Positions 5,393 to 53,540 of a stretch of 64,000 bases of DNA are shown here, piece by piece; position 1 is the first letter of the stretch; every line of letters begins with the position of its first letter. Location: contig NC_087074.1 in the NCBI RefSeq assembly GCF_026151205.1, positions 18,078,712-18,142,711 of the forward strand, read 5' to 3'. Both the position numbers and the translations under genes were made by a program. Source of the DNA: Bolinopsis microptera (Eukaryota; Ctenophora; Tentaculata; Lobata; Bolinopsidae). Under the pieces are notes generated by a model, which did not search any database, had not been told where the DNA came from, and saw only the letters and a program-made list of their open reading frames with translations.

Positions 5393-6985
5393 TCACTTTG
5401 AATCGAAAAATCCAGCAAGTCTCTGAATCTCAGCAAACAAGTCAGAACTGGTGATATGAAAGTGAGCTGCAACATCATCTATAATAATCTGCAGCTCCAG
5501 CGGCAATATTGAATCTTCCAATAATTCATCAATAGGGTAGACTAGTATTTTTCTATCATAATGTAACCCATCTGACTTCTTCTTGTATTTCCGTTTAGCA
5601 CTGTTTTTAGGACAGTCATTTTCATGTTGTTCTTCATTCTGCACAATTTGATCTTCAGATTTAACATCAAGAAAACTTGAAAACTGCTGTTTGAGTTCGC
5701 TTGACAATTCGGAGTCTTTTAAGACTTTAACATTCTGGGATATGATGGCTTCCACTGATTTTAAGTAATCTTCGAGAGGCATGTTTAAGAAATGTTTTTC
5801 GGTGACAAAACCGTGCCTTTCCACTATAGATTTATCAACTAAATTACATACACTGTTTTCATGCCTAGATTTAAGATATGGTAAAAACCAAATGAGCCAT
5901 GGTTCTTTTGGTGAATCAGGATTTTCAAATTGGAAAAAGAGACGTAGAGCAGTAACAAAGCACCCCGCTATGATAAGTTCAACATTTACCATGGTTTGGT
6001 TTTCTGCCCTATAAAACTTTTTGAAAAGTCCGACGCACAATAAATGGACATCATTAGCTGAGATTTCAAATTTAGTTCGCAGTCTATTGAACAGAGCTGC
6101 TAGAACACTAAAATGAAGCTTGGGTTTGGGAACATCATCTAAAATATCTGAAACAGCCAGGACCCTTTCTTTCAAACTTTTTAACGTAGGTAGACTACGA
6201 ACTCGGAGTGAACTCCCCAGAAGCTTTTTTGGTTTGAAGTATTCAGGCAACAATCGAGTTGTGTTGAAATAGCACAAAGTCCCATCACCTATCCAACTCA
6301 GGATATCACAACACAGCACCGGATAGTGTATAGAAAGTAGGGATAAATACAGGATAGCCAAGTTATCAAAAATACTGATCTTATAGATATCAGTCAAAAC
6401 AACTGGCTCCACTTTCGGCACGTTTATAGTTCCGATCTTAGCAAGGAACCTGAACCAGAGGTTTCCTACAACGTTTGTTAATTGCTCCGGGACTCCTTGA
6501 CTGATGAGACCGTTGGTTTGGATCAGGAGGATTGCTTGTACGGCTTCTGTTACCGTCCATATTCTGTCCGGGATCCCAGTGGTTTTGGTGCTGTTCAAAC
6601 CTTTGGCTACTCGCCTGTAAACATTTTGTATTAATTTATGACCAAAGTTTTTGATATGTGTGCGATGTTATTTAACTAGACATTTGATAAGCGGGACTGA
6701 GAACGGGATAAACAATTCTTTTCTCATGTTCACTTCATTTGATAGAAAATCATCAAAAAGCAAATCACAAATTACACGATTAACAGCTGTATCCATGATG
6801 ACCCCTAGTAACGTCTCTATCCCAACTCACCTGACACTAGCGTTATGTTGGGTGAATAAGGTATCGTCCAGTTCCACCACCTCCTCTCTGATGTCCTGAG
6901 ACTGGGTACCACACACTCTGCAGTAACCTGTACCATCACCCAGCTCGAAGTCATTTGCAGTTCCACATTCCTGACATCGCAGCAT
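5393..6985 (-). CDS. TAF1B: TAF1B / Rrn7-like RNA polymerase I initiation factor subunit, complete
   Basis: Two exons: 6985-6831 (155 nt) and 6614-5393 (1222 nt), joined in frame through GT/AG borders, encoding about 458 residues (human about 588). Exon 1 is the Rrn7-type N-terminal zinc ribbon with cysteine pairs CQEC (residues 4-7) and CRVC (22-25). Exon 2 starts in the cyclin-like core (about residues 60-330) with the WFRF and LAILYLSLL helices typical of TAF1B/Rrn7, and ends in a divergent lysine-rich tail. Known role: subunit of the SL1/core factor that recruits RNA polymerase I to rDNA promoters, with TFIIB-like architecture, acting in the nucleolus. The first ATG sits directly before the zinc ribbon. 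The 5' part of this gene is present twice more to the right as truncated copies. This is the only complete copy in the window. Confidence 0.88.
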
Positions 6986-8130
6986 TCCTACGACATTGTT
7001 GAAGGATTTGTGGGTTATCTAATTATGTATTTGTGGGTTATATCTAATGTGAATTTGTGGGTTATATCTAATGTGAATTTGAATTATTCGACTGTTGCAG
7101 CTGCATGTCAATTTTGAGTGGAGACACTTGATTTTTCATATAAAAGACATTATCAGCATGCTGCTGTCGGTGGTTTTCATTTACAAACACAAGTAATACT
7201 GCCCATGCTGTCATACAAAATAGAAATATTTATCATCGGATAAAATTCACAGTAAAACACCCCAAATCAGACGAGTTGGTTTAAAACGTAACTGTAAAAG
7301 GCAAAACTTAGGTTTTCAAAACATTGGCGGTGTACATTTTAATGTAGACTATTTAATCAATTGGTCAAAATGGTAAATATCTGTACTTCTGGTTAAAACG
7401 TGTGTCATGCAATAAAAACATCGTGGCCAGCACATTTAATAAATTAATTGATACAAATCGATATTATATCTAAACGTATGAAACGAAATTATGCATCTTA
7501 ATCAACAATCGTCAACAATCTATATTATAATTAATAATTTTGTATCTAAAAGCAATCACCAACAAGTTAAAGAAGGTTAAAACAACAATAAAATTTCTGT
7601 TGAAATTCTAAATTGATTCATCATCTGTCAATTCAACGAAGAAGTAATGTCATTTATATAAGCATTCATCGATAAAAGCCAATAGAGATCAATCAACAAC
7701 GAACATTTTCTATGTCTATGACTAGTAGTACCTGAAAAAAATGCTGTCTTTCATTTCAAAACCATGATGTTATAAATATGGTTCGAGATTTCAATTATTC
7801 TAAACTTTTAAAAATTTCTTGGTTTAATTGGATGATGATGGTAAGTCTAAAAGTGTCTGGAGCGAGATTATTGTTTTACATCAATCTTTGAATCAATCAA
7901 TTTGTTTCTTGAAGAAAACAAGTTGTAATCAGAATGACTTTAGGATCTTATATTATCTATCAGCTTATAACGACAAACCAGAGCTTAAAAAGATCACCAA
8001 GAATTCAAGATCCAAACAAAGCATTAAAAAAAAAAAAAACAAAGAAATGTTAACAAAGTAAATAAGATCCTCGAGAATTCAAGATCCAAACAAGGCTTTT
8101 TTTTTTAAAGAAAAAAAATGTAGATGACAA
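6986..8130. other. Intergenic region between the upstream gene and TAF1B (copy A)
   Basis: This is the head-to-tail interval on the minus strand between the stop codon of the upstream gene (8131) and the TAF1B start, and presumably contains the TAF1B promoter. It shows short direct repeats of a TTTGTGGGTTATATCTAATG-like word near 7010-7080 and two A/T runs near 8020-8115. The same interval is repeated almost unchanged at about 12180-13274 and 16140-17234. Open frames within it differ between copies and end at poly-A runs, so they are not taken as genes. Confidence 0.5.
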
Positions 8131-10677
8131 TTATGAAGTAAGCCTGATGGGAAACAAGGAGGCAGAACCATAGAAGTCATACTTGAACTCAGTGCTGAGG
8201 TTGTGGGAGGTGGCGAGGAGAGAGGAGGTGGGGTTGAGGAGGAGAAGGATCTGGAACTTGTAGATCTGATTATCGCACTGTTCTTCAGGGCTTGTTCCGA
8301 GAACAGCTTCTACTGAGCACTGTGGGTATTATAGACTGTTAGAGGACAGCACTGTGGGTATTATAGACTGTTAGAGGACAGCACTGTGGGTATTATAGAC
8401 TGTTAGAGGACAGCACTGTGGGTATTATAGACTGTTAGAGGACAGCACTGTGGGTATTATAGACTGTTAGAGGACAGCACTGTGGGTATTATAGACTGTT
8501 AGAGGACAGCACTGTGGGTATTATAGACTGTTAGAGGACAGCACTGTGGGTATTATAGACTGTTAGAGGACAGCACTGTGGGTATTATAGACTGTTAGAG
8601 GACAGCACTGTGGGTATTATAGACTGTTAGAGGACAGTACTGTGGGTATTATAGACTGTTAGAGGACAGCACTGTGGGTATTATAGACTGTTAGAGGACA
8701 GCACTGTGGGTATTATAGACTGTTAGAGGACAGCACTGTGGGTATTATAGACTGTTAGAGGACAGCACTGTGGGTATTATAGACTGTTAGAGGACAGCAC
8801 TGCGCGTATTATAGATTGTTAGAGGACAGCACTGTGGGTATTATGGACTGTTAGAGGACAGCACTGTGGGTATTATAGACTGATAGAGGACAGCACTGTG
8901 GGTATTATAGACTGTTAGAGGACAGCACTGTGGGTATTATGGATTGTTAGAGGACAGCACTGTGGGTATTATTATAGACTGTTAGAAGACAGCACTGTGG
9001 GTATTATAATTTATAGACTGTTAGAGGACAGCACTGTGGGTATTATAGACTGTTAGAGGACAGCACTGTTGGTATTATAGACTGTTAGAGGACATCACTG
9101 TGGGTATTATAGACTGTTAGAGGACAGCACTGTGGGTATTATAGACTGTTAGAGGACATCACTGTGGGTATTATAGACTATTAGAGGACAGCACTGTGGG
9201 TATTATAGACTGTTAGAGGACAGCACTGTGGGTATTATAGACTGTTAGAGGACAGCACTGTGGGTATTATAGACTGTTAGAGGACAGCACTGTGGGTATT
9301 ATAGACTGTTAGAGGACAGCACTGTGGGTATTATAGACTGTTAGAGGACAGCACTGTGGGTATTATAGACTGTTAGAGGACAGCACTGTGGGTATTATAG
9401 ACTGTTAGAGGACAGCACTGTGGGTATTATAGACTGTTAGAGGACAGCACTGTGGGTATTATAGACTGTTAGAGGACAGCACTGTGGGTATTATAGACTG
9501 TTAGAGGACAGCACTGTGGGTATTATAGACTGTTAGAGGACAGCACTGTGGGTATTATAGACTGTTAGAGGACAGCACTGTGGGTATTATAGACTGTTAG
9601 AGGACAGCACTGTGGGTATTATAGACTGTTAGAGGACAGCACTGTGGGTATTATAGACTGTTAGAGGACAGCACTGTGGGTATTATAGACTGTTAGAGGA
9701 CAGCACTGTGGGTATTATAGACTGTTAGAGGACAGCACTGTGGGTATTATAGACTGTTAGAGGACAGCACTGTGGGTATTATAGACTGTTAGAGGACAGC
9801 ACTGTGGGTATTATAGACTGTTAGAGGACAGCACTGTGGGTATTATAGACTGTTAGAGGACAGCACTGTGGGTATTATAGACTGTTAAAGGACAGCACTG
9901 TGGGTATTATAGACTGTTAGAGGACAGCACTGTGGGTATTATAGACTGTTAGAGGACAGCACTGTGGGTATTATAGACTGTTAGAGGACAGCACTGTGGG
10001 TATTATAGACTGTTAGAGGACAGCACTGTGGGTATTATAGACTGTTAGAGGACAGCACTGTGGGTATTATAGACTGTTAGAGGACAGCACTGTGGGTATT
10101 ATAGACTGTTAAAGGACAGCACTGTGGGTATTATAGACTGTTAGAGGACAGCACTGTGGGTATTATAGACTGTTAGAGGACAGCACTGTGGGTATTATAG
10201 ACTGTTAGAGGACAGCACTGTGGGTATTATAGACTGTTAGAGGACAGCACTGTGGGTATTATAGACTGTTAGAGGACAGCACTGTGGGTATTATAGACTG
10301 TTAGAGGACAGCACTGTGGGTATTATAGACTGTTAGAGGACAGCACTGTGGGTATTATAATTTATAGACTGTTAGAGGACAGCACTGTGGGTATTATAGA
10401 CTGTTAGAGGACAGCACTGTGGGTATTATAGACTGTTAGAGGACAGCACTGTGGGTATTATAGACTGTTAGAGGACAGCACTGTGGAGTTTGGGTGAGGA
10501 TAGTTAGAGCGTTCAAATATTAAACCATGGATCTTAAACAAATTGTGTGTCTAATTACCTCTTTGTCAAGTAGCAAGGAGTAATATTTGTCTAGGAGCTC
10601 GAACGCTAGCTCAGAAACAAGACCTGACTGAACCACGCTGAACAACGTTCTTTCTGCGGAAAGTATTGATTTGTCAG
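8131..10677 (-). CDS. Unidentified gene upstream of TAF1B, last two exons (copy A)
   Basis: Penultimate exon 10677-10559 (119 nt) encodes a helix-rich stretch containing SAERTLFSVVQSGLVSELAF and ends with a GAG/GTAATT donor. The last exon, 8319-8131 (189 nt, 62 codons plus stop), begins after a CCCACAG acceptor and encodes ...YKFQILLLLNPTSSLL... up to a TAA. The two join in phase 0. I do not recognise the family; the hydrophobic, regularly spaced leucines would suit an alpha-helical (HEAT-like) protein, but that is a guess. The intron between them (8320-10558) is almost wholly a 32-bp minisatellite. Copy A lacks the gene's upstream exons because the duplicated block cuts it off, so this copy is probably a 3'-end relic. 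Confidence 0.5.
8319..10486. repeat. 32-bp minisatellite, array A (about 68 units), each unit carrying a 3'-splice-site-like sequence
   Basis: Near-perfect tandem repeats of 32 bp, with rare single-base variants and a few small insertions (for example near 8970, 9010 and 10360). Read on the minus strand each unit contains CTCTAAC, matching the branch-point consensus, and 19 nt later CCCACAG/TGC, a good 3' splice site. The array-end unit supplies the real acceptor of the last exon at 8319. The array thus fills the intron with dozens of copies of its own acceptor. Confidence 0.9.
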
Positions 10678-10718
10678 CTTGTAGTAATAATAGTAGTAAT
10701 CTATTGTAGTAATTTATT

Positions 10719-10905
10719 GCGACAATATTGCCCTAATTCCTCCGAAAATATTGCCCTAATTCCTCCGACAATATTGCCCTAATTCCTCCGACAATATTGC
10801 CCTAATTCCTCCGACAATATTGCCCTAATTCCTCCGACAATATTGCCCTAATTCCTCCGACAATATTGCACTAATTCCTCCGAAAATATAGCCCTCATTC
10901 CTCCG
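10719..10905. repeat. 23-bp tandem repeat, about 8 units, only in copy A
   Basis: Units of 23 bp built on CGACAATATTGCCCTAATTC, with single-base changes towards the right end. Copies B and C contain just one unit at the matching place (about 14835 and 18730). The expansion therefore happened after, or was lost after, the segmental duplication. Confidence 0.88.
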
Positions 10906-11437
10906 CCCCGAACCCAACATCCTACAGTCTGTTAATACGAATAAGGCTGCTTTTTTCCAAATTATATTAGCCCTATAATATGTTGATAAATCTTTGCAGG
11001 TAGCGCTTTATTCGCCAACTCAGGAAATTCAGTGTAAGACATTAACCTTATTTTGGTTTAAAAGTTTAAAAGGAAATAGCTGCAGTAGCCAGTAAATCGG
11101 GGTATGTGGTAAATATGGGTGTGATAAATCAGAGTTTAATCGTGCCACGACAACTTCTACCAGATGAGATCTGATTATATTAAATTATATTGATCCTCAC
11201 AATATCACTATTCATCCACCCAATATAATTAGTCAATATCCACCCATATGGCGCATCAGACAGATAATGCAAAAAATCATTTACTTACCATAATTATTAA
11301 TTACGTCCTTATTTTTCCATTTACTATCATTACTCCATATAAATGTCGGCATATTCTGTTCTTTTTTTAGATAATTTTTCGTTTATTTTTTAAATGTTAC
11401 TCGTTTATAAGAAAGTGAAGATGTGAAAACAGCTTAC
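10906..11437. other. Non-coding right part of copy A, with one possible exon
   Basis: Mostly AT-rich sequence shared by all three copies. On the minus strand at about 11150-11045 there is an open stretch reading LPHTPIYWLLQLFPFK and ending at AAG/GTTAATG. In copies B and C an 8-bp deletion shifts this frame into a stop. The phase does not match the next exon of the unidentified gene, so I do not call it an exon. Confidence 0.35.
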
Positions 11438-12179
11438 TCAGGCAACAATCGAATTGTGTTGAAATAGCACAAAGTCCCATCACCTATCCAACTCAGGATA
11501 TCACAACACAGCACCGGATAGTGTATAGAAAGTAGGGATAAATACAGGATAGCCAAGTTATCAAAAATACTGATCTTATAGATATCAGTCAAAACAACTG
11601 GCTCCACTTTCGGCACGTTTATAGTTCCGATCTTAGCAAGGAACCGGAACCAGAGGTTTCCTACAACGTTTGTTAGCTGCTCTGGGATTCCTTGACTGAT
11701 GAGACCGTTGGTTTGGATCAGGAGGATTGCTTGTACGGCTTCTGTTACCGTCCATATTCTGTCCGGGATCCCAGTGGTCTTGGTGCTGTTCAAACCTTTG
11801 GCTACTCGCCTGTAACCATTTTGTATTAATTTATGACCAAAGTTTTTGATATGTGCGCGATGTTATTTAACTAGACATTTGATGAGCGGGACTGATAACG
11901 GGGTAAACAATTCTTCTCTAATGTTCACTTCATTTGATAGAAAATCATCAAAAAGCAAACACAAATAACACGATTAACAGCTGTATCCATGATGACCCCT
12001 AGTAACGTCTCTATCCCAACTCACCTGACACTAGCGTTATGTTGGGTGAATAAGGTATCGTCCAGTTCCACCACCTCCTCTCTGATGTCCTGAGACTGGG
12101 TACCACACACTCTGCAGTAACCTGTACCATCACCCAGCTCGAAGTCATTCGCAGTTCCACATTCCTGACATCGCAGCAT
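11438..12179 (-). pseudogene. TAF1B: Truncated TAF1B copy (copy B)
   Basis: Exon 1 (12179-12025) with the complete zinc ribbon, and exon 2 from 11809, match the intact gene almost exactly. The coding region stops at the duplication breakpoint, where codon PE is followed by TAA made by the junction bases. About 173 residues remain, lacking most of the cyclin-like core. The start, splice sites and upstream interval are preserved, so transcription and a zinc-ribbon-only peptide are possible, but the gene cannot encode a full TAF1B. Confidence 0.85.
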
Positions 12180-13274
12180 TCCTACGACATTGTGGAAGGA
12201 TTTGTGGGTTATCTAATTATGTATTTGTGGGTTATATCTAATATGAATTTGTGGGTTATATCTAATGTGAATTTGAATTATTCGACTGTTGCAGCTGCAT
12301 GTCAATTTTGAGTGGAGACACTTGATTTTTCATATAAAAGACATTATCAGCATGCTGCTGTCGGTGGTTTCCATTCACAAACACAAGTAACACTTCCCAT
12401 GCTGTCATACAAAAATAGAAATATTTATCATCGGATAAAATTCACAGTAAAACACCCCAAATCAGACGAGTTGGTTTAAAACGTAACTGAAAAAGGTAAA
12501 ACTTAGGTTTTCAAAACATTGGCGGTGAACATTTTAATGTAGACTATTTAATCAATTGGTCAAAATGGTAAATATCTGTACTTCTGGTTAAAACGTGCAA
12601 TAAAAACATCGTGGCCAGCACATTTAATAAATTAATTGATACAAATCGATATTATATCTAAACGTATGAAACGAAATTATGCATCTTAATCAACAATCGT
12701 CAACAATCTATATTATAATTAATAATTTTGTATCTAAAAGCAATCACCAACAAGTTAAAGAAGGTTAAAACAACAATAAAATTTCTGTTGAAATTCTAAA
12801 TTGATTCATCATCTGTCAATTCAACGAAGAAGTAATGTCATTTATATAAGCATTCATCGATAAAAGCCAATAGAGATCAATCAACAACGAACATTTTCTA
12901 TGTCTATGACTAGTAGTACCTGAAAAAAATGCTGTCTTTCATTTCAAAACCATGATGTTATAAATATGGTTCGAGATTTCAATTATTCTAAACTTTTAAA
13001 AATTTCTTTTAAAAGTGTCTGGAGCGAGATTATTGTTTTACATCAATCTTTGAATCAATCAATTTGTTTCTTGAAGAAAACAAGTTATAATCAGAATGAC
13101 TTTAGGATCTTATATTATCTATCAGCTTATAACGACAAACCAGAGCTTAAAAGATCCAAACAAAGCATTAAAAAAAAAAAAACAAAGAAATGTTTACAAA
13201 GTAAATAAGATCCTCGAGAATTCAAGATCCAAACAAGGCTTTTTTTTTAAAGAGAAAAAAAATTTAGAGGACAA

Positions 13275-14787
13275 TTATGAAGTAAGCCTGATGGGAAACA
13301 AGGAGGCAGAACCATAGAAGTCATACTTGAACTCAGTGCTGAGGTTGTGGGAGGTGGCGAGGAGAGAGGAGGTGGGGTTGAGGAGGAGAAGGATCTGGAA
13401 CTTGTAGATCTGATTATCGCACTGTTCTGCAGGGCTTGTTCCGAGAACAGCTTCTACTGAGCACTGTGGGTATTATAGACTGTTAGAGGACAGCACTGTG
13501 GGTATTATAGACTGTTAGAGGACAGCACTGTGGGTATTATAGACTGTTAGAGGACAGCACTGTGGGTATTATAGACTGTTAGAGGACAGCACTGTGGGTA
13601 TTATAGACTGTTAGAGGACAGCACTGTGGGTATTATAGACTGTTAGAGGACAGCACTGTGGGTATTATAGACTGTTAGAGGACAGCACTGTGGGTATTAT
13701 AGACTGTTAGAGGACAGCACTGTGGGTATTATAGACTGTTAGAGGACAGCACTGTGGGTATTATAGACTGTTAGAGGACAGCACTGTGGGTATTATAGAC
13801 TGTTAGAGGACAGCACTGTGGGTATTATAGACTGTTAGAGGACAGCATTGTGGGTATTATAGACTGTTAGAGGACAGCATTGTGGGTATTATAGACTGTT
13901 AGAGGACAGCACTGTGGGTATTATAGACTGTTAGAGGACAGCACTGTGGGTATTATAGACTGTTAGAGGACAGCACTGTGGGTATTATAGACTGTTAGAG
14001 AACAGCACTGTGGGTATTATAGACTGTTAGAGGACAGCACTGTGGGTATTATAGACTGTTAGAGAACAGCACTGTGGGTATTATAGACTGTTAGAGGACA
14101 GCACTGTGGGTATTATAGACTGTTAGAGGACAGCATTGTGGGTATTATAGACTGTTAGAGGACAGCACTGTGGGTATTATAGACTGTTAGAGGACAGCAC
14201 TGTGGGTATTATAGACTATTAGAGGACAGCACTGTAGGTATTATAGACTGTTAGAGGACAGCACTGTGGGTATTATAGACTGTTAGAGGACAGCACTGTG
14301 GGTATTATAGACTGTTAGAGGACAGCACTGTGGGTATTAAAGACTGTTAGAGGACAGCACTGTGGGTATTATAGACTGTTAGAGGACAGCACTGTGGGTA
14401 TTATAGACTGTTAGAGGACAGCACTGTGGGTATTATAGACTGTTAGAGGACAGCACTGTGGGTATTATAGACTGTTAGAGGACAGCACTGTGGGTATTAT
14501 AGACTATTAGAGGACAGCACTGTGGGTATTATAGACTGTTAGAGGACAGCACTGTGGGTATTATAGACTATTAGAGGACAGCACTGTGTTTGAGGATCAT
14601 AGTTAGAGGGTTCAAATATCAAACCATGGAATTTAAGAAGATCTTAAACAAATTGTGTGTCTAATTACCTCTTTGTCAAGTAGCAAGGAGTAATATTTGT
14701 CTAGGAGCTCGAACGCTAGCTCAGAAACAAGACCTGACTGAACCACGCTGAACAACGTTCTTTCTGCGGAAAGTATTGATTTGTCAG
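13275..14787 (-). CDS. Unidentified gene, last two exons (copy B)
   Basis: Same structure as copy A: penultimate exon 14787-14669, last exon 13463-13275, phase 0 join, and identical product at the level read. The upstream exons are missing from this copy, so it is most likely an untranscribed or run-on relic. The intron is filled by minisatellite array B. Confidence 0.45.
13463..14589. repeat. 32-bp minisatellite, array B (about 35 units)
   Basis: Same unit as array A. It shares a series of variant units with array C (GCATTG, AGAACAG, TGTAGG, TTAAAG, ACTATTAG) in the same order, which shows that B and C are recent copies of one array differing by two units. Confidence 0.92.
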
Positions 14788-14789
14788 CT

Positions 14790-15396
14790 TGTAGTAATAA
14801 TAGTAGCAAACTATTGTAGTAGTAATTTATTGCGACAATATTGTCCTCATTCCTCCGCCCCGAACCCAACATCCTACAGTCCGTTAATACGAATAAGGTC
14901 GATTTTTCCAAATTATATTAGCCCTATAATTATATGTTGATAAATCTTTGCAGGTAGCGCTTTATTCACCAACTCAGGAATCCAGTGTAAGACATTAACC
15001 TTATTTTGGTTTAAAAGGAAATAGCTGCAGTATCCAGTAAATCGGGGTATGTGGTAAATATGGGCGTGATAAATCAGAGTTTAATCGTGCCACGACAACT
15101 CTACTCACAACTTCTACCAGATGAGATCTGATTATATTAAATTATATTGATCCTCACAATATCACTATTCATCCACCCAATATAATTAGTCAATACCCAC
15201 CCATATGGCGCATCAGACAGATAATGCATAAAATCATTTACTTACCATAATTATTAATTACGTCCTTATTTTACCATTTACTATCATTACTCCATATATA
15301 AATGTCGGCATATTCTGTTCTTTTTTTAGATAATTTTTCGTTTATTTTTTAAATGTTACTCGTTTATAAGAAAGTGAAGATGTGAAAACAGCTTAC
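14790..15396. other. Non-coding right part of copy B
   Basis: Matches 18686-19290 of copy C and 10680-11437 of copy A apart from the 23-bp expansion there. No gene is seen. The right edge is the junction with copy C. Confidence 0.5.
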
Positions 15397-16139
15397 TCAG
15401 GCAACAATCGAATTGTGTTGAAATAGCACAAAGTCCCATCACCTATCCAACTCAGGATATCACAACACAGCACCGGATAGTGTATAGAAAGTAGGGATAA
15501 ATACAGGATAGCCAAGTTATCAAAAATACTGATCTTATAGATATCAGTCAAAACAACTGGCTCCACTTTCGGCACGTTTATAGTTCCGATCTTAGCAAGG
15601 AACCGGAACCAGAGGTTTCCTACAACGTTTGTTAGCTGCTCTGGGATTCCTTGACTGATGAGACCGTTGGTTTGGATCAGGAGGATTGCTTGTACGGCTT
15701 CTGTTACCGTCCATATTCTGTCCGGGATCCCAGTGGTCTTGGTGCTGTTCAAACCTTTGGCTACTCGCCTGTAACCATTTTGTATTAATTTATGACCAAA
15801 GTTTTTGATATGTGCGCGATGTTATTTAACTAGACATTTGATGAGCGGGACTGATAACGGGATAAACAATTCTTCTCTCATGTTCACTTCATTTGATAGA
15901 AAGTCATCAAAAAGCAAATCACAAATTACACGATTAACAGCTGTATCCATGATGACCCCTAGTAACGTCTCTATCGCAACTCACCTGACACTAGCGTTAT
16001 GTTGGGTGAATAAGGTATCGTCCAGTTCCACCACCTCCTCTCTGATGTCCTGAGACTGGGTACCACACACTCTGCAGTAACCTGTACCATCACCCAGCTC
16101 GAAGTCATTCGCAGTTCCACATTCCTGACATCGCAGCAT
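15397..16139 (-). pseudogene. TAF1B: Truncated TAF1B copy (copy C)
   Basis: Exon 1 at 16139-15985 and exon 2 from 15768 down to the breakpoint at 15397, followed at once by a TAA. It has the same truncation as copy B and is nearly identical to it. It retains the zinc ribbon and the first part of the cyclin-like core only. Confidence 0.85.
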
Positions 16140-17234
16140 TCCTACGACATTGTGGAAGGATTTGTGGGTTATCTAATTATGTATTTGTGGGTTATATCTA
16201 ATATGAATTTGTGGGTTATATCTAATGTGAATTTGAATTATTCGACTGTTGCAGCTGCATGTCAATTTTGAGTGGAGACACTTGATTTTTCATATAAAAG
16301 ACATTATCAGCATGCTGCTGTCGGTGGTTTCCATTCACAAACACAAGTAACACTTCCCATGCTGTCATACAAAAATAGAAATATTTATCATCGGATAAAA
16401 TTCACAGTAAAACACCCCAAATCAGACGAGTTGGTTTAAAACGTAACTGAAAAAGGTAAAACTTAGGTTTTCAAAACATTGGCGGTGAACATTTTAATGT
16501 AGACTATTTAATCAATTGGTCAAAATGGTAAATATCTGTACTTCTGGTTAAAACGTGCAATAAAAACATCGTGGCCAGCACATTTAATAAATTAATTGAT
16601 ACAAATCGATATTATATCTAAACGTATGAAACGAAATTATGCATCTTAATCAACAATCGTCAACAATCTATATTATAATTAATAATTTTGTATCTAAAAG
16701 CAATCACCAACAAGTTAAAGAAGGTTAAAACAACAATAAAATTTCTGTTGAAATTCTAAATTGATTCATCATCTGTCAATTCAACGAAGAAGTAATGTCA
16801 TTTATATAAGCATTCATCGATAAAAGCCAATAGAGATCAATCAACAACGAACATTTTCTATGTCTATGACTAGTAGTACCTGAAAAAAATGCTGTCTTTC
16901 ATTTCAAAACCATGATGTTATAAATATGGTTCGAGATTTCAATTATTCTAAACTTTTAAAAATTTCTTTTAAAAGTGTCTGGAGCGAGATTATTGTTTTA
17001 CATCAATCTTTGAATCAATCAATTTGTTTCTTGAAGAAAACAAGTTATAATCAGAATGACTTTAGGATCTTATATTATCTATCAGCTTATAACGACAAAC
17101 CAGAGCTTAAAAGATCCAAACAAAGCATTAAAAAAAAAAAAACAAAGAAATGTTTACAAAGTAAATAAGATCCTCGAGAATTCAAGATCCAAACAAGGCT
17201 TTTTTTTTAAAGAGAAAAAAAATTTAGAGGACAA

Positions 17235-18683
17235 TTATGAAGTAAGCCTGATGGGAAACAAGGAGGCAGAACCATAGAAGTCATACTTGAACTCAGTGCT
17301 GAGGTTGTGGGAGGTGGCGAGGAGAGAGGAGGTGGGGTTGAGGAGGAGAAGGATCTGGAACTTGTAGATCTGATTATCACACTGTTCTTCAGGGCTTGTT
17401 CCGAGAACAGCTTCTACTGAGCACTGTGGGTATTATAGACTGTTAGAGGACAGCACTGTGGGTATTATAGACTGTTAGAGGACAGCACTGTGGGTATTAT
17501 AGACTGTTAGAGGACAGCACTGTGGGTATTATAGACTGTTAGAGGACAGCACTGTGGGTATTATAGACTGTTAGAGGACAGCACTGTGGGTATTATAGAC
17601 TGTTAGAGGACAGCACTGTGGGTATTATAGACTGTTAGAGGACAGCACTGTGGGTATTATAGACTGTTAGAGGACAGCACTGTGGGTATTATAGACTGTT
17701 AGAGGACAGCACTGTGGGTATTATAGACTGTTAGAGGACAGCATTGTGGGTATTATAGACTGTTAGAGGACAGCATTGTGGGTATTATAGACTGTTAGAG
17801 GACAGCACTGTGGGTATTATAGACTGTTAGAGGACAGCACTGTGGGTATTATAGACTGTTAGAGGACAGCACTGTGGGTATTATAGACTGTTAGAGAACA
17901 GCACTGTGGGTATTATAGACTGTTAGAGGACAGCACTGTGGGTATTATAGACTGTTAGAGAACAGCACTGTGGGTATTATAGACTGTTAGAGGACAGCAC
18001 TGTGGGTATTATAGACTGTTAGAGGACAGCATTGTGGGTATTATAGACTGTTAGAGGACAGCACTGTGGGTATTATAGACTGTTAGAGGACAGCACTGTG
18101 GGTATTATAGACTATTAGAGGACAGCACTGTAGGTATTATAGACTGTTAGAGGACAGCACTGTGGGTATTATAGACTGTTAGAGGACAGCACTGTGGGTA
18201 TTATAGACTGTTAGAGGACAGCACTGTGGGTATTAAAGACTGTTAGAGGACAGCACTGTGGGTATTATAGACTGTTAGAGGACAGCACTGTGGGTATTAT
18301 AGACTGTTAGAGGACAGCACTGTGGGTATTATAGACTGTTAGAGGACAGCACTGTGGGTATTATAGACTGTTAGAGGACAGCACTGTGGGTATTATAGAC
18401 TATTAGAGGACAGCACTGTGGGTATTATAGACTGTTAGAGGACAGCACTGTGGGTATTATAGACTATTAGAGGACAGCACTGTGTTTGAGGATCATAGTT
18501 AGAGGGTTCAAATATCAAACCATGGAATTTAAGAAGATCTTAAACAAATTGTGTGTCTAATTACCTCTTTGTCAAGTAGCAAGGAGTAATATTTGTCTAG
18601 GAGCTCGAACGCTAGCTCAGAAACAAGACCTGACTGAACCACGCTGAACAACGTTCTTTCTGCGGAAAGTATTGATTTGTCAG
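17235..18683 (-). CDS. Unidentified gene, last two exons (copy C, still joined to upstream DNA)
   Basis: Penultimate exon 18683-18565 and last exon 17423-17235, identical in structure to copies A and B. Because copy C keeps the original right flank, it is the copy most likely to serve as the true 3' end of the upstream gene. No upstream exon could be firmly assigned: a candidate on the minus strand near 20150-20245 (reading RQLLDLFTATLWF, with a GTGAGA donor) does not match in phase. The family is not recognised. Confidence 0.5.
17423..18485. repeat. 32-bp minisatellite, array C (about 33 units)
   Basis: Same 32-bp unit and the same ordered variants as array B, two units shorter. It fills the intron between the last two exons of the unidentified gene in copy C. 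Each unit again holds CTCTAAC and CCCACAG/TGC on the minus strand. Confidence 0.92.
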
Positions 18684-32112: not shown

Positions 32113-35100
32113 CAAGAAAACAACAATTTCAAGAAAACAACAATTTTATTTAGTATCAGTTAAAGCAGACAAAAACATATTTTATATATATAACTAGTGC
32201 AAACTTTAGACCATATATCTTAGGGGACTTGGAGTAGCAAGAGAGTGACCAGAAAGTATATGTATACTTTTACCAAAAATACGTCGAAATGAATCCAGGG
32301 TGATACAGGATCTGAGAGTGCAGACCATAAAGTTTACGCACCCACCCTTGCCTCCTGAATTCTTGGTTGGAAAGACAATTATGCAAAATTGGTCGTTTAT
32401 ACTCCAAGTCCCTTTGTTAATAGAAGTAGTATTATTTATGTCTGGAGTTAGCTTCATTCAATAATAACAATATCAATATAATCAATATTAATATCAATAT
32501 CAGACTAAACTATCAAATAAATAAATTATCAAATATCAATTATTAATTCATTCTGATTAAAAAGTTATAGATTAGGATATCTAATATTTAAGAATTACAA
32601 CTACAAGTTGTTAAAAACGCCCAAAATAGATCTGAGATATTTTCAGTCTGTAGTACAATAATGATAGCAATAGTTTAAATTATGTTATGTGCCGCTGCAA
32701 TTAGATTAAATTACTGTAACTTAAAATTGTTTGGAGTCCAAGTCTCTTTTAAGTCAGCAGCCTGTGATTGTATTAATAGTGCTTTCGTTCTCAATTTTAT
32801 CAAGTTAATGGAAGTTTCTAGACAATTGCTTGAAGTTAAAATTTTTTTATGAACAGTGTTCCAAAGCTTGGCTGCATTAAACAAAAAGGTATTTGATTTG
32901 TTTAGAAGAATAACTGTTAGACTCGTTGCACGGTTTGAAATGTTGATAGCCTCATAAAGGGAGTATGGGCAGTGGTACTTGATAATCTTAGAGAATTCTA
33001 AAATACAGTGATATTTGTACAAGTTTTGAGCCGTAAGAATTTTTAACCTATTAAAAATGGGTTTCGTATGCTCCTTTTCAAAATGTTTATGGCCTAGTAT
33101 TTGCATGCCATATGGTCTAGTTCTTGCACATGTTGATTGTTTATCTAGATATGAGTCGAGATCACCAAAAAGGATTCTTATACAGTGCTTCTGTGTGATA
33201 AAAAGACTATCATTTGACCGTTCTTTGAGGACAACTCCCCAAACACTTATACCATAACTTAGATGTGATTCAAATAGAGCATTATATATTTTTAAATATA
33301 GTTCAGCAGGTATCGAGTGCCGAATTCTACAGATTGCACCAGTCATGGACCTCAGTTTTTTACGGATGTAGTGCATGTGGGCAGACCAGTTTAGCTTACT
33401 ATCTATAACAACACCTAAGAATTTGGTATCCTTGACTTTAGTGATAACCTTACCATTGATGAATATTGATCTAGATTCATCTAGCAGGGTAGCAAATGGT
33501 CTAGTCCGTGCACAGGTGTCATCATATTCAGAGGCAGGTTTAAAATGGATGTAGCAGCATTTTGACATGTTGATATGAAGTAGATTACATTTCATATAAA
33601 TCGAGACATGTTTAAGCACTAAGTTGGCTTTTTTGTATGTTGCTTCTCTAGACGGTCCTGATATGAAGATATTAGTGTCATCAGCATAAAGTACAAATTT
33701 CACTTCACTGTCTGAAAAAGAGTTTACTATATCGTTCATATACAGTAGGAAGAGTAATGGCCCTAGAATTGACCCTTGAGGAACCCCGAATTCCACATCC
33801 ATTGTTTCTGATGGTACATCGTTATACATCACATACTGCTTTCTGTTAGTCAAGTAGCTTTTTAGTAAAGTTAGTGCTGTGCCCCTAATACCATAGGAAT
33901 TTAGCTTGCTTAGAAGAATATTGTGATCAAGGGTGTCAAAGGCTTTGCTCAAGTCAATGAATATGCCTAGGACATGTTTATTGCTAGCCAGGGACTTTGT
34001 AACAGAGTCTATAGATTTGTGTAGAGCATGGGCGGTAGAATGGCCTTTTCTAAATCCAAACTGCGAGTCTGTTAGTACACCTTTAGACGTGAAGAAATTA
34101 TAGAGCCGTTTGTAAATGACCTTCTCGAAAATTTTTCCAAATAAAGGTAATATTGATACAGGCCGATAATTTTCAATACATTCCTTATTGTCTTTCTTGT
34201 AAATAGGAATAACTTTACCAGTTTTAAAAATACTTGGGAATGTTCCACTTTGTATGCATATGTTGTAAAGCCTAGCCAAGGTACCAGCGATGAGCTTTGC
34301 CGATTTTTTTACAACGATTATAGGTATGTCACTTGCCTTGCCATTTTGAAAATCTCTGATGACCTCGATAATCTCATCTTCATTAGTTTCTTCTAGGTAT
34401 ATGGAGTCAGACACTGAATTAGACATGAATTGAGCAAATGATTCTACTGGTTCCAGAGAAATACTAATATTGTTCGACAATACATTTCTATTGAGATTGC
34501 TTGCAAGAGATGTAAAGTATTCACAAAATTTGTTAGCAATTATTCGTCTGCAGGTAATTCTCTGGCCATCTATGACAAAATCGTCCTTACATCTAGACAC
34601 ATTCTTACCACGGAGTTCATTGATAACTTCCCAGGTCTTTTTTGAGTTCATGCTGTACTTCTCGAATTTTCTAGTATAGCACATAACTTTTGCCATATTT
34701 ATTGAGTTTTTGAGAAACTTGTCGAATTCCTTGTAGCAGATGTGCTTGTTTTGATCCCCGTCAGGTAGTTTTAATGTACAAGTCTTCTTCCATTCGAAAT
34801 ACAACCTAGCTTTCTTGTCTATGGAATTAATTAGCCCCTGGGTAATCCAAGGGTTAGTTATGCTGTTGCGTTTAGTGGTTCTAGGAGTAAGAAGTTTGCA
34901 AGACAAATCTATCTTTTCTTGAAATAACTGCATGAAAGAGTCAAATGTGTCACAGCTGTACTGGAACCTATCTATATCGTTTTCTATTTCAAGACAGAGC
35001 TTCTCTAGGTTAGCATTACTATAGTCGTAGTGTATGGTAATTTTGTCTGGTGAATCAGGTTTAGGCACAGAGTTAGGGGGAAGCTCAACAAGAGTGAATA

Positions 35101-35340
35101 CAGGGTGATGGTGGGAGATATTATCAGATATCACACCAGAAATAAGGGATTGGTCTACTACATTGGTGTGGATATTGTCAATACAAGTCCTGGAACAGCC
35201 AGGCATTTGGTGTGTTGGTACTGATATGGTTGGTGTGAAGCCGTTGTTGAATATTATTTCTTGGAATTTGTCCTCTGATGGAGATGGGTCTTTCAAAATG
35301 TTGACATTGAAATCACCAAGAATGTATACTTTTTCATCAG
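32113..35340 (-). mobile_element. Second LINE (jockey/CR1-like), 5'-truncated, inserted in ORF1 of the first LINE
   Basis: The right border at about 35340 lies inside the endonuclease (the element begins with YILGDFNVNIL). The left border at about 32113 follows a tail in which AATTGTTGTTTTCTTG is repeated. A TGATG word is present at both borders and may be the target duplication. The 3' UTR is about 600 bp (32113-32710). A decayed relative of the same family lies at 59.9-60.8 kb. Confidence 0.85.
32711..35296 (-). CDS. Reverse transcriptase of the second LINE (endonuclease mostly lost)
   Basis: An intact 861-codon frame. After the end of the endonuclease domain (ISVPTHQMPGCSRTCIDNIH and SHHHPVFTLV) comes a linker with a YSMNSKKTWEVINELRG motif. 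Then follows the RT core with IGTFPSIF-like lead, YRPVSILPLFGKIFEKVIY, LGIFIDLSKAFDTLDH, VEFGVPQGSILGPLLFLLYM and FVLYADDTNIF (near 33685). A C-terminal part ends ALLIQSQAADL. The lack of stops over 2.6 kb suggests recent insertion. It is not autonomous without the lost 5' part. Confidence 0.88.
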   Translation of the reverse strand: MKDPSPSEDKFQEIIFNNGFTPTISVPTHQMPGCSRTCIDNIHTNVVDQSLISGVISDNISHHHPVFTLVELPPNSVPKPDSPDKITIHYDYSNANLEKLCLEIENDIDRFQYSCDTFDSFMQLFQEKIDLSCKLLTPRTTKRNSITNPWITQGLINSIDKKARLYFEWKKTCTLKLPDGDQNKHICYKEFDKFLKNSINMAKVMCYTRKFEKYSMNSKKTWEVINELRGKNVSRCKDDFVIDGQRITCRRIIANKFCEYFTSLASNLNRNVLSNNISISLEPVESFAQFMSNSVSDSIYLEETNEDEIIEVIRDFQNGKASDIPIIVVKKSAKLIAGTLARLYNICIQSGTFPSIFKTGKVIPIYKKDNKECIENYRPVSILPLFGKIFEKVIYKRLYNFFTSKGVLTDSQFGFRKGHSTAHALHKSIDSVTKSLASNKHVLGIFIDLSKAFDTLDHNILLSKLNSYGIRGTALTLLKSYLTNRKQYVMYNDVPSETMDVEFGVPQGSILGPLLFLLYMNDIVNSFSDSEVKFVLYADDTNIFISGPSREATYKKANLVLKHVSIYMKCNLLHINMSKCCYIHFKPASEYDDTCARTRPFATLLDESRSIFINGKVITKVKDTKFLGVVIDSKLNWSAHMHYIRKKLRSMTGAICRIRHSIPAELYLKIYNALFESHLSYGISVWGVVLKERSNDSLFITQKHCIRILFGDLDSYLDKQSTCARTRPYGMQILGHKHFEKEHTKPIFNRLKILTAQNLYKYHCILEFSKIIKYHCPYSLYEAINISNRATSLTVILLNKSNTFLFNAAKLWNTVHKKILTSSNCLETSINLIKLRTKALLIQSQAADLKETWTPNNFKLQ

Positions 35341-36027
35341 GGTCTTGATAGTGTCATTCTTCTTCAGGACACCCTCCACTAGCTCTTCTTTCGTCTTTAT
35401 GTCTGCATCAAGGCCTGAGATAGTTATCTTTGGATTAAGCTTCCTCAGTTCTTCCGACTTAGATGTGACATTATATTTGGATTTAAGCGCTTCTTCTGCA
35501 TGACCTAGATCCTCTTTGGATTTGAACACCAGTCTGGCAACACCTTCAGTTTTAGGGGGATTAGCCCTAACTACAGGAATATTGCTCAGTTTTCGCTTAA
35601 GATCCTTTTTCACAACTGTTATCCATTCTTCACCCGAGATTTTAATATCTCCATCAGGTCCCAAGTCCTCAGACTTCTTTTCAACCACCAAAGTGTGCCT
35701 GACCTTCTCAGTATGCAAAGACTTCACACCAGAATAACCTGACTGAGCTGTTGCCAAGCTCTCCTGGATAATATGTGGCAGTGTAGAAGCTAGTTCCTCT
35801 CTTACAATAGCTAAAACCTGTGCATGTGTACTGGATTCTTGTGGGCAAGACAGAGCTTCGATTGCTTTTTCAGCTAAATTGTAGGCCATTTTTAGGGACT
35901 GCCAAATGCCCTCCTTTGTATTAGTACACTTTTTAACATCATCACACTCAGATATTCTTACCTTAAGGGAGGTGTTGATTTTCTCCAACTCTATCTCCAG
36001 TTTCTTCTTCAATTTCATATCCGCCAT
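35341..36027 (-). pseudogene. ORF1 first part of the CR1/L2-like LINE
   Basis: Begins MADMKLKKKLEIELEKINTS (a predicted coiled coil) and runs to TIKTLM, where the second LINE interrupts. The central part, with ARLVFKSKEDLGHAEEALKS and NPKITISGLD, resembles the RRM-like fold of LINE ORF1 proteins. The last 12 residues of the open frame are from the inserted element. Confidence 0.8.
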
Positions 36028-40544: not shown

Positions 40545-41727
40545 CTGCGAGTTATATTAATTATTAATGTGTGTTATATTAATTATTAATGTGTATAAAT
40601 ATGAATAAATAAAATCAAGTTTTAAACATCACAATTCACAAATATGGTGAACGTGAATTTCTTCCCACAGATATATTCATATAATGATATCAAATGACAA
40701 ATTTTGATCACGAACTGGCCATTTTATCACAAAACTACTAATTGTGAAAGTTACCGGGCATTTGCAGATTTTTCTTAAATAGCTTTCAAGAATAAAGATT
40801 TTACTAAGAAGTTGCGGAAATTCGGTAATCTGTCGATGCTCACTTAACTCACGGTTAAGGCACGATTTTATTTTTGCACTTACAGTTAAAGTTCGATGGT
40901 TCTACTTTGTACTTCTAGCTTAGTTATAATTGGTTTCATTTTAATCAGCAAAAGCCGTAGAATCACGGCTAAAATGCAATTATGTCCGATGGTATTTTTT
41001 TGCCTACAGTACTGCCCAGTTCCATAATTAACAGTCTATTCTATTAAAGTATTAAGGTTCATGGATGAGGAAATAGGTATGATTCCCTGCGAAAAATGGA
41101 ACAAGTTGCTGCTTTAAATCAAAATTTGTATGCTTGCCAAGTATTGCTTCATTTTAAGTAATGAATTTTACTTACAAAATTCAACCAAAATTGTTGAGTT
41201 AGCGACCGAAAGATGTCCATGAACTTGAAGTGAAATATTAATAACATGAATCAGTCAGAACATCTGGGAAAGTCACGGACTCTTGGATCTTCCAAGTACT
41301 AGGGTAAAGTACTCTGTGCTACAATAGTGGTGCACAAAGAGACAATTTATATGTCAATATGTAGATAAAATGTGTCCACTTATTCATAATCATACTGGCA
41401 ACTTCGCCACAGATAACATAACTTGATTTCTGCAGCCACAAAGAATTCTGATAAATATTCCTAGAATTTAATTAAAAATAATCCAAAAACGAAAGTTTTT
41501 CATTATTAGTATTAATTAAATTTCCACCGTAATATTATGGTTATAACCGTGACTCATTATTTTATTAGCATGATCGATAACTTGAGATAAAATGTAAAAC
41601 ATCATCATAAAAATCAACGATTTTTATGACAAACTGTTCTGTTGTATCAGTGACAAAATCATAGTGTTCGTTTATATTTTAGCCGGTATGTGAACTTATT
41701 TACGAAAAATCTAGTGAATCCACCGGA
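40545..41727. other. Intronic region, AT-rich
   Basis: No coding or RNA feature recognised. TATTAATTATTAATGTGT is tandemly duplicated near 40553-40600. Confidence 0.4.
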
Positions 41728-42790
41728 CATTTGAAGCACCGGGCATTTGAAACACCGGGCATTTGAAGCACCGGGCATTTGAAACACCGGGCATTTGAAA
41801 CACCGGGCATTTGAAACACCGGGCATTTGAAACACCGGGCATTTGAAACACCGGGCATTTGAAACACCGGGCATTTGAAACACCGGGCATTTGAAGCACC
41901 GGGTATTTGAAACACCGGGCATTTGAAACACCGGGCATTTGAAACAGCGAGCATTTGAAACACCGGGCATTTGAAACACCGGGCATTTGAAACAGCGAGC
42001 ATTTGAAACACCGGGCATTTGAAACACCGGGCATTTGAAACACCGGGCATTTGAAACACCGGGCATTTGAAACACCGGGCATTTGAAGCACCGGGCATTT
42101 GAAACACCGGGCATTTGAAACACCGGGCATTTGAAACACCGGGCATTTGAATCACCGGGCATTTGAAGCACCGGGCATTTGAAGCACCGGGCATTTGAAG
42201 CACCGGGTATTTGAAACACCGGGCATTTGAAACACCGGGCATTTGAAACAGCGAGCATTTGAAACACCGGGCATTTGAAACACCGGGCATTTGAAACAGC
42301 GAGCATTTGAAACACCGGGCATTTGAAACACCGGGCATTTGAAACACCGGGCATTTGAAACACCGGGCATTTGAAACACCGGGCATTTGAAGCACCGGGC
42401 ATTTGAAACACCGGGCATTTGAAACACCGGGCATTTGAAACACCGGGCATTTGAATCACCGGGCATTTGAAGCACCGGGCATTTGAAACACCGGGCATTT
42501 GAAACACCGGGCATTTGAAACACCGGGCATTTGAAACACCGGGCATTTGAAACACCGGGCATTTGAAACAGCGAGCATTTGAAGCACCGGGCTTTTGAAA
42601 CACCGGGCATTTGAAACACCGGGCATTTGAAGCACCGGGTATTCGAAACACCGGGCATTTGAAACACCGGGCATTTGAAACACCGGGCATTTGAAACAGC
42701 GAGCATTTGAAGCACCGGGCTTTTGAAACACCGGGCATTTGAAGCACCGGGCATTTGAAGCACCGGGCATTTGAAACACTGGGCTTCTGG
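41728..42790. repeat. 16-bp minisatellite (about 66 units) with higher-order structure
   Basis: The unit is CACCGGGCATTTGAAA, with recurrent variants (AGCGAGC, GGGTATTT, GGCTTTTG, GAAGC, GAATC). Two variants recur at exactly 304 bp (19 units): GGGTATTT at 41901 and 42205, and ATCACCG at 42151 and 42455. AGCGAGC followed by GGCTTTTG recurs at 128 bp (8 units; 42571 and 42699). Because 16 is not a multiple of three, the minus strand is open in all three frames with a 16-residue cycle (CFKCPVFQMPGVSNAR). I regard those frames as by-products of the repeat. Confidence 0.92.
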
Positions 42791-52319: not shown

Positions 52320-53540
52320 AAAAGCGTTAATAAGACAGTACACGATTAGATTTTGGTATTAAAAGTTGTATTCTCAAATTTATAATCAAGCTTCAAAAAT
52401 ATATAAAAGATTTTAGATGTTGGAAGATTTTTGAAAGAGGCTTTTTTGCCGTCTTTCTAGTCTTTGTTCGATATTTCGCAGTTTTGACTGAAGTTTTGAC
52501 CAATGACTCATCAATAAGGTTGGTGGGAATGAAACAAAATGCCATCAATGTACTGGTTGTAGGTTTATAACCTACTAAGAAGCGCGCCGTTTGGACATAT
52601 TCGAATTTCAACTTTCCGCGACCCAAATTTCACTGTCAAGAGGATGACACAAGACACGATTGAGGTACTCAAAAGATTTATTTCTATAAAAGCTTTGATA
52701 AATGGAAAATTGTCAAAATATAAAGAAATTTTTTTGAAGAAAAGCTTTTCTGTCGTCTCTTTGACCGAAATTTCGCGGTTTTGACTGAAATTTTGACCAT
52801 TTACCAATCAGTGAGGTCGGTGAAAGTGACACAAGTCGCTATAAAGGTACTGAAAGCAGTATATCCTGAGAAAACGTTAATGCAATGAAAATTTGAATTG
52901 TCCTATTGGTAGGACAAATTGGAATTTCAGTTTTCCATGACCCAAATTTTACTGTTTTGATTAAATTTGTCTTGAAAGACCATCTAGCAAGGTAGGTCAC
53001 TGGCACAAGACAAGATTGTGGTATTGAAAGTTCTGTTTCCAAAGAAAGCTTTGATAAACGGAAAATCGTCAAAATATAAAAAGAGATTTTGGAAGATGTT
53101 TGAAGAGAAGCTTTTCTGCTGTCTCCTTGACCGAAATTTCGTGGCTTTGACTGACATTTTGACCAGTAACTCATCAGTGAGGTCGATTAGAGTGACACAA
53201 GTCGCCATTAAGGTACTGGAAGCAGTATATCCGAAGAAAACTTTGATGCAATGAAAATTTTGAATATGTCCTACCGGTAGGACATATTCGAATTTCAGCT
53301 TTCAGCGACCTTAATTTCACTGTTTTGACTGAATTTTTCTTCAATGACCATCTTACAAGGTCACTGCTATTCTCAAATAAAGCTTTGATAAACGAAAAAT
53401 CGTCAAAATATAAAAAGATATTTTGGAAACTTTTTCTAATAGAAGTTTTTCTTCCGTTTCCTTCCGCAACCAAAATTTCACAGTTTTGACTGCGAAAGAT
53501 CAATATGTCAAAATATGATCCCAAATCGAGTTCTCTTAAA
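52320..53540. repeat. Degenerate ~340-bp tandem repeat, 3-4 units
   Basis: AGCTTTGATAAA(T/C)GGAAAAT recurs at 52691, 53047 and 53381 (spacings 356 and 334), with the same order of words around each (GACCGAAATTTCG, TTTTGACTGA, TCCTACCGGTAGGA-like palindrome, TTCAATTT). A fourth, worn unit lies to the left, about 52340-52640. Several minus-strand open frames repeat the same peptide in different phases, so the repeat is DNA-level and not coding. Confidence 0.8.

Follow-up and report, generated by a model that had tools for sequence, protein, structure and literature searches.

Introduction

Minisatellites that duplicate splice boundaries, a rare kind of repeat, are known from amphioxus under the name of mirages. 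They have been described in Adh3, in the globin genes BflGb6 and BflGb9 and in troponin C, with similar imperfect repeats in PGBD5 (PMC3087553, PMC3902484). According to these reports, the repeated segments copy intron/exon boundaries, the arrays differ in length, and the hosts reported are cephalochordates (PMC3087553, PMC3902484). Units of the Adh3 mirage measure 10-72 bp (PMC3087553, PMC3902484), and this mirage displays somatic instability (PMC3087553). In BflGb6 the repeated segment joins the intron's 3' end to the beginning of the exon, and two haplotypes carry 6 and 3 units (PMC3087553). Many mirage units hold splice signals, and the Adh3 data together with globin reverse transcription-polymerase chain reaction suggest that splicing is regular (PMC3087553); similar remarks on mirage splicing are made in PMC3902484. 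Here we analyze a related repeat in the ctenophore Bolinopsis microptera (assembly GCF_026151205.1), found in 64,000 nucleotides (nt) of contig NC_087074.1 (positions 18,078,712 to 18,142,711 of the forward strand), a stretch referred to below as the window. On its minus strand, a 32-bp minisatellite whose unit carries a branch point and a 3' splice site fills the predicted last intron of a gene that we call gene X, in all three copies of the tail of this gene. The explanation we favor, at a probability of about 0.6, is a locus-specific minisatellite of the mirage type: a 3' splice site amplified by slippage, perhaps leaky, and tolerated by the gene.

Related repeats occur in the human genome. 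A variable-number tandem repeat (VNTR) in intron 18 of ABCA7 has a 25-bp unit and abuts exon 18, whose donor coincides with the first two bases of the repeat (PMC5954066). Transcripts that retain one unit occur, with a shifted frame, and skipping of exon 19 rises with array length (PMC5954066). Likewise, some internal tandem repeats of human segmental duplications lie at exon-intron boundaries and alter gene structure (PMC2812944). A first-pass annotation of the window, made from the sequence alone, had held that no system of this type was described; the amphioxus mirages (PMC3087553) and, on the donor side, the ABCA7 VNTR (PMC5954066) contradict this. A literature search over titles and the starts of abstracts of open-licence papers retrieved no repeat in which each unit combines a branch point and an acceptor.

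Results

The three arrays lie on the minus strand at 8316..10486 (copy 1), 13460..14588 (copy 2) and 17420..18484 (copy 3), where Tandem Repeats Finder counts 67.3, 35.3 and 33.3 copies, respectively. Splitting the arrays at the acceptor yields 67, 35 and 33 units, an about twofold difference in array length within one assembly. Copy 1 includes two units of 39 bp and one of 35 bp, the remainder being 32 bp long. The minus-strand consensus of the 32-bp unit is TGCTGTCCTCTAACAGTCTATAATACCCACAG, and 54 of 67, 25 of 35 and 23 of 33 units match it exactly. Each unit was predicted by the first-pass annotation to be a branch point plus a 3' splice site, and this anatomy is confirmed, with 18 nt from CTCTAAC to the end of the acceptor AG. 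A single AG intervenes, ending 3 nt past the presumed branch A, a distance too small for use as an acceptor. CTCTAAC and the terminal AG are both kept in 62 of 67, 29 of 35 and 27 of 33 units; AG is changed to AA in three units of copy 2 and in three of copy 3. Each array overlaps the last exon by four bases (TGCT), and the joint CACAGTGCT is present at each array end.

To score splice sites we used a matrix built from PRP8 introns of the same genome, located by spliced alignment; 26 introns were aligned, and 25 were counted after the second of them, a doubtful one, had been dropped. The unit acceptor scores 5.76, exceeding 8 of the 25 PRP8 acceptors, and a score of at least 5.76 is attained by 3.6% of the plus-strand AGs of the window. 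The acceptor of the intron of TAF1B, a neighboring gene, scores 2.47. Four of the 25 PRP8 introns contain CTAAC close to their 3' end, compared with 2.9% of random 40-nt stretches. Donor-like sites within the unit score -4.62 at most; the actual donor of the penultimate exon scores 8.39. With acceptor signals in every unit and no donor, the pre-mRNA would present dozens of near-equal acceptors.

Other models of the unit were rejected. Units with both donor and acceptor, or recursive splicing, are incompatible with the missing donor, and so is intron gain through duplication of an AGGT or proto-splice site, which calls for both sites. A coding array is excluded by the TAA reached within two units and by a unit length that is not a multiple of 3.

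We next consider reading frames. Among the array acceptors, the last unit alone would join the last exon in the long frame, in keeping with the claim of the first-pass annotation. The quick stop that it foresaw for all other acceptors was likewise borne out by conceptual translation: the 129 intact upstream acceptors of the array type (67 + 32 + 30, left edge included) are all predicted to reach a stop within 0-28 residues. For 94 of them (52 + 22 + 20) the protein end is CCPLTVYNTHSAVL. The last exon itself contains six AGs, located 42-138 nt past the last acceptor, whose use would shorten the exon and leave the long frame intact; their scores in copy 1 range from -7.71 to 2.38, compared with 5.76 at the last unit.

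Introns spliced through the last unit measure 2,239, 1,205 and 1,141 nt in copies 1, 2 and 3. The 25 PRP8 introns, all of one gene, have a minimum of 102 and a median of 176 nt, and 2 of them exceed 1.1 kb. The 5' edge of every array forms an additional acceptor, missed by the first-pass annotation, 78-85 nt past the donor. The minus-strand interval from donor to edge acceptor is 78 nt in copy 1 (10481..10558; CTCTAAC, 17 nt, CACAG/TGCT; score 7.73) and 85 nt in copy 3 (18480..18564; CTCTAAC, 13 nt, CACAG/TGCT; score 5.16), as well as in copy 2 (14584..14668), whose edge sequence is the same as that of copy 3. Were the edge acceptor or the first units mostly used, an intron of this size would be removed, the array would be 3' untranslated sequence and the protein would end in CCPLTVYNTHSAVL or similar. 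The edge site is transcribed first, has both CTCTAAC and CACAG, outscores the unit in copy 1 and gives a short intron, as is usual for PRP8. However, 78-85 nt lies below all 25 PRP8 introns, the edge of copy 3 scores under the unit, and the coding signal and constraint of the 62-codon last exon described below would be left unexplained. We regard predominant use of the edge as unlikely, though deserving of some weight.

The last exon of copy 1 (8131..8319, minus strand) was defined by the frame open from the acceptor and by its coding score, and encodes 62 amino acids and a stop (CSVEAVLG...FPIRLTS). Alignment places it at 13275..13463 in copy 2 and 17235..17423 in copy 3, both on the minus strand, with exon starts at 8319, 13463 and 17423. 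The penultimate exon is 95 nt long and also lies on the minus strand, at 10559..10653 in copy 1 (splice-site and coding scores) and, by alignment, at 14669..14763 in copy 2 and 18565..18659 in copy 3. Its acceptor TTTCCGCAG/AAAG scores 8.05 and its donor is GAG/GTAATT. Joining the exons through the last unit sets a frame that is, in each of them, the top coding frame of the three. With a coding score trained partly on genes of the window, and whose noncoding set overlaps the null, 2 of 89 equal-length open noncoding pieces reach the score of the last exon and 31 of 527 pieces reach that of the penultimate one. In the codons just upstream of the 31 counted for the penultimate exon, the score is negative, at -7.53 for 27 codons in copy 1 and -14.64 for 52 codons in copies 2 and 3. 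Pieces of TAF1B have a mean coding score below that of the gene X exons.

Divergence between copies points the same way. Over both exons, copies 1 and 3 differ at 1 of 284 nt, a synonymous change in the last exon, with 0 gaps, compared with 42 mismatches in 1,747 nt and 20 gaps in the non-exon flanks (Fisher p = 0.002). Together, the splice sites, the best frame and the low divergence make the exons of gene X look real at the level of sequence.

We then asked how readily such an array arises by chance. When 32-mers drawn at random from the window are placed in tandem, 63 of 20,000 carry CTAAC and an equally good acceptor on either strand, and so do 131 of 20,000 base-shuffled units. A survey of 304 kb, made up of the window, the PRP8 region and 20 sampled pieces, covered 66 minisatellite arrays, of which none but these three qualify with the strict branch motif; the looser motif YTNAY admits 5 of 66, adding two short arrays. 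These figures bear on the view that gene X is a non-functional tail and the array an ordinary minisatellite that happens to hold acceptor-like sequence. This view draws on database searches: gene X has no Pfam match at an expectation value (E) of up to 1, its two matches in PDB are no better than E 0.06, a search of its own genome for a paralogue gave nothing beyond one weak match (E 0.05), and its upstream exons were not found. Against it stand the exon constraint, the coding score, the matched phase and the good splice sites; furthermore, the exact joint of array and exon would be a coincidence, given how few random 32-mers carry such an acceptor. Chance or decay thus appears to us a rather unlikely explanation.

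A search of the genome (264.65 Mb in 232 contigs) with up to 3 mismatches returned 132 unit matches, and the same search of the window returned 132, all inside the three arrays. The unit is thus no dispersed element. Introner-like elements, which form introns in a dispersed fashion, are present at many loci, and an origin from a transposon or introner was rejected on the equality of the two counts.

The three arrays are part of a segmental triplication. By alignment, the repeated block begins in the region that precedes the penultimate exon of gene X and reaches the head of the neighboring TAF1B gene. The downstream neighbor, a TAF1B/Rrn7-like gene at 5393..7000 on the minus strand, shows no truncation (Pfam PF20644 Rrn7_cyclin_N in the 5393-6613 frame, E 4.2e-13). 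Truncated 5' parts of TAF1B, recognized by alignment with the full gene, lie on the minus strand directly upstream of copy 1 (11434..12194) and of copy 2 (15393..16154), and terminate at a stop in the duplication junction. They differ from the full gene at 19 of 761 and 18 of 762 nt, respectively (2.4-2.5% mismatches). Copy 3 is the sole copy that no TAF1B fragment precedes. Copies 1 and 2, lying behind these fragments in a position that the first-pass annotation had missed, thus have only two exons of their own, and on this arrangement upstream exons could directly precede copy 3 alone. Copies 1 and 2 could be used as alternative tails through read-through from further upstream. A spliced fusion of truncated TAF1B to gene X was rejected, the junction donor scoring -0.57. 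The same unit variants recur in copies 2 and 3, whose arrays are two units apart in length, which indicates that their duplication is recent; the variants of copy 1 are largely its own. A separate 23-bp repeat just upstream of the penultimate exon (10720-10905, 8.1 copies) is expanded only in copy 1; the matching places of the other two copies have no extra 23-bp units.

Substitutions within units tell whether the splice signals are preferentially kept. Copy 1 has 14 substitutions, 4 within CTCTAAC and 0 within AG, and copy 3 has 10, with 3 in CTCTAAC and 3 in AG. The branch point and AG are not spared, and no requirement for many functional acceptors can therefore be seen. This speaks against a selected splicing device, in which the number of acceptors would tune the ratio of long to truncated C-termini and array length would act as a switch or a buffer. 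The first-pass annotation had entertained a splicing buffer or a source of isoforms; this suggestion did not hold up, since the branch point and AG are hit as often as elsewhere and two of the three copies lack upstream exons of their own. Truncation of the protein by all 129 non-last array acceptors and the twofold difference in array length would suit such a device, as would the altered splicing that accompanies ABCA7 VNTR length (PMC5954066). In the ABCA7 results given in that report, however, it is skipping of exon 19 that depends on length, unit retention being independent of it (PMC5954066). Overall, we consider a selected device highly improbable. In a related scheme, copy number, heritable or somatic, would set the truncated share as a rheostat does, with the tandem copies, through their different array lengths, serving as alternative tails of one upstream gene. 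It would build on dozens of equal acceptors facing one productive one, and it seems improbable.

The acceptor joint ACAGUGCUGU is almost self-complementary between units. In a predicted fold of five units of RNA the acceptors pair mutually (z = -1.81), and 11 of 200 shuffles fold equally well. In the rheostat scheme, pairing of neighboring acceptors via ACAGUGCUGU might conceal internal sites.

The genome that harbors the array has spliceosomal introns, along with genes for a TAF1B/Rrn7-like protein, PRP8 and clathrin. Elsewhere in the window, a 16-bp minisatellite at 41721-42784 (minus strand, 66.5 copies) has long open stretches in several minus-strand frames; its longest open reading frame has 399 amino acids, with repeats like PVFQMPGVSNARCFKC. 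Several long reverse-transcriptase-like frames at 26.9-36.1 kb apparently belong to retrotransposons without long terminal repeats, RVT_1 (Pfam) being confirmed only for the 32711-35353 frame. A 366-bp unit is present in two tandem copies, 81% matching, at 52648-53361.

Discussion

Our preferred reading is that of a mirage-type minisatellite confined to this locus. A founding segment, running from the branch point through AG plus four bases of the last exon, would have been tandemly duplicated; slippage or unequal exchange would then have amplified it to 33-67 units. The block that spans the gene tail, from the region before the penultimate exon as far as the head of TAF1B, was later triplicated, and the array therefore now stands three times. 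The long protein end would require the last acceptor, any other array acceptor leading to truncation. The last acceptor would normally be used, with some leak, and the array would serve no selected function. What the sequence itself shows is the anatomy, the reading frames, the confinement to this locus, the constraint on the exons and the triplication; the duplication origin, the normal use of the last acceptor and the lack of a selected function are inferred.

Birth of the array by splice-site duplication, already proposed in the first-pass annotation, is suggestive only. The TGCT overlap and the presence of CACAGTGCT at both ends form the pattern expected from tandem duplication across the boundary. 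The left-flank CTCTAAC adds little to it, and is the first of several points that weigh against our reading: outside the joint it is weak, being matched by 2,698 of 20,000 shuffles in copy 1 and 907 of 20,000 in copy 3. Coding scores of the exons are modest beside those of 65 PRP8 pieces, of which 2 score no higher than the penultimate exon, 26 no higher than the first half of the last exon, and 0 no higher than its last half. One block, several hundred bases long and lying 3' of gene X, is identical among the copies, as conserved as the exons; divergence is thus patchy, and gene conversion could mimic exon constraint. The acceptor of the penultimate exon implies upstream exons, and none were found by frame listing, coding scan or Pfam on chosen frames; of 10 frames chosen between 19.2 and 24.4 kb for the latter search, one gave a sub-threshold match (E 0.067) and nine gave none. 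Finally, PRP8 introns are short, and an acceptor near the donor might therefore beat the last one. The modest coding scores, together with the possible use of copies 1 and 2 through read-through, slightly lower confidence in the reading we favor.

The locus provides a natural test bed for acceptor choice, as tens of near-identical modules of branch point and AG stand in series, the reading frame reports use of the last acceptor, and one locus offers three array lengths. It bears on how splice-site minisatellites lengthen introns, and it adds to the mirage phenomenon an array that is very homogeneous and consists almost purely of acceptors.

Compared with the ABCA7 VNTR, the array is alike in adjoining an exon at a splice site (PMC5954066). 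The repeat in ABCA7 lies on the donor side and the present one on the acceptor side; polymorphism and an effect on splicing were measured in ABCA7 (PMC5954066), whereas the present array is described from sequence. The internal tandem repeats of human segmental duplications resemble it as minisatellites with units of ~30 bp in recently duplicated genes, and differ in having about four repeats on average; in the portion of that report considered here no acceptor array is described (PMC2812944). The closest likeness is to the amphioxus mirages. As in these, tandem repeats lie across an intron/exon boundary, if the exon model holds, and the units contain splice signals; the unit of 32 bp also falls inside the 10-72 bp range given for Adh3 (PMC3087553, PMC3902484). 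The array is thus of the mirage kind, both testable defining features of mirages being present. Unlike BflGb6, with its 6 and 3 units (PMC3087553), the present arrays have 33-67 near-identical units, and each unit combines a branch point and an acceptor with four exon bases, in the tail of a triplicated gene. What sets it apart from the known mirages, as judged from the predicted splice signals, is the high copy number, the homogeneity and the nearly pure acceptor content.

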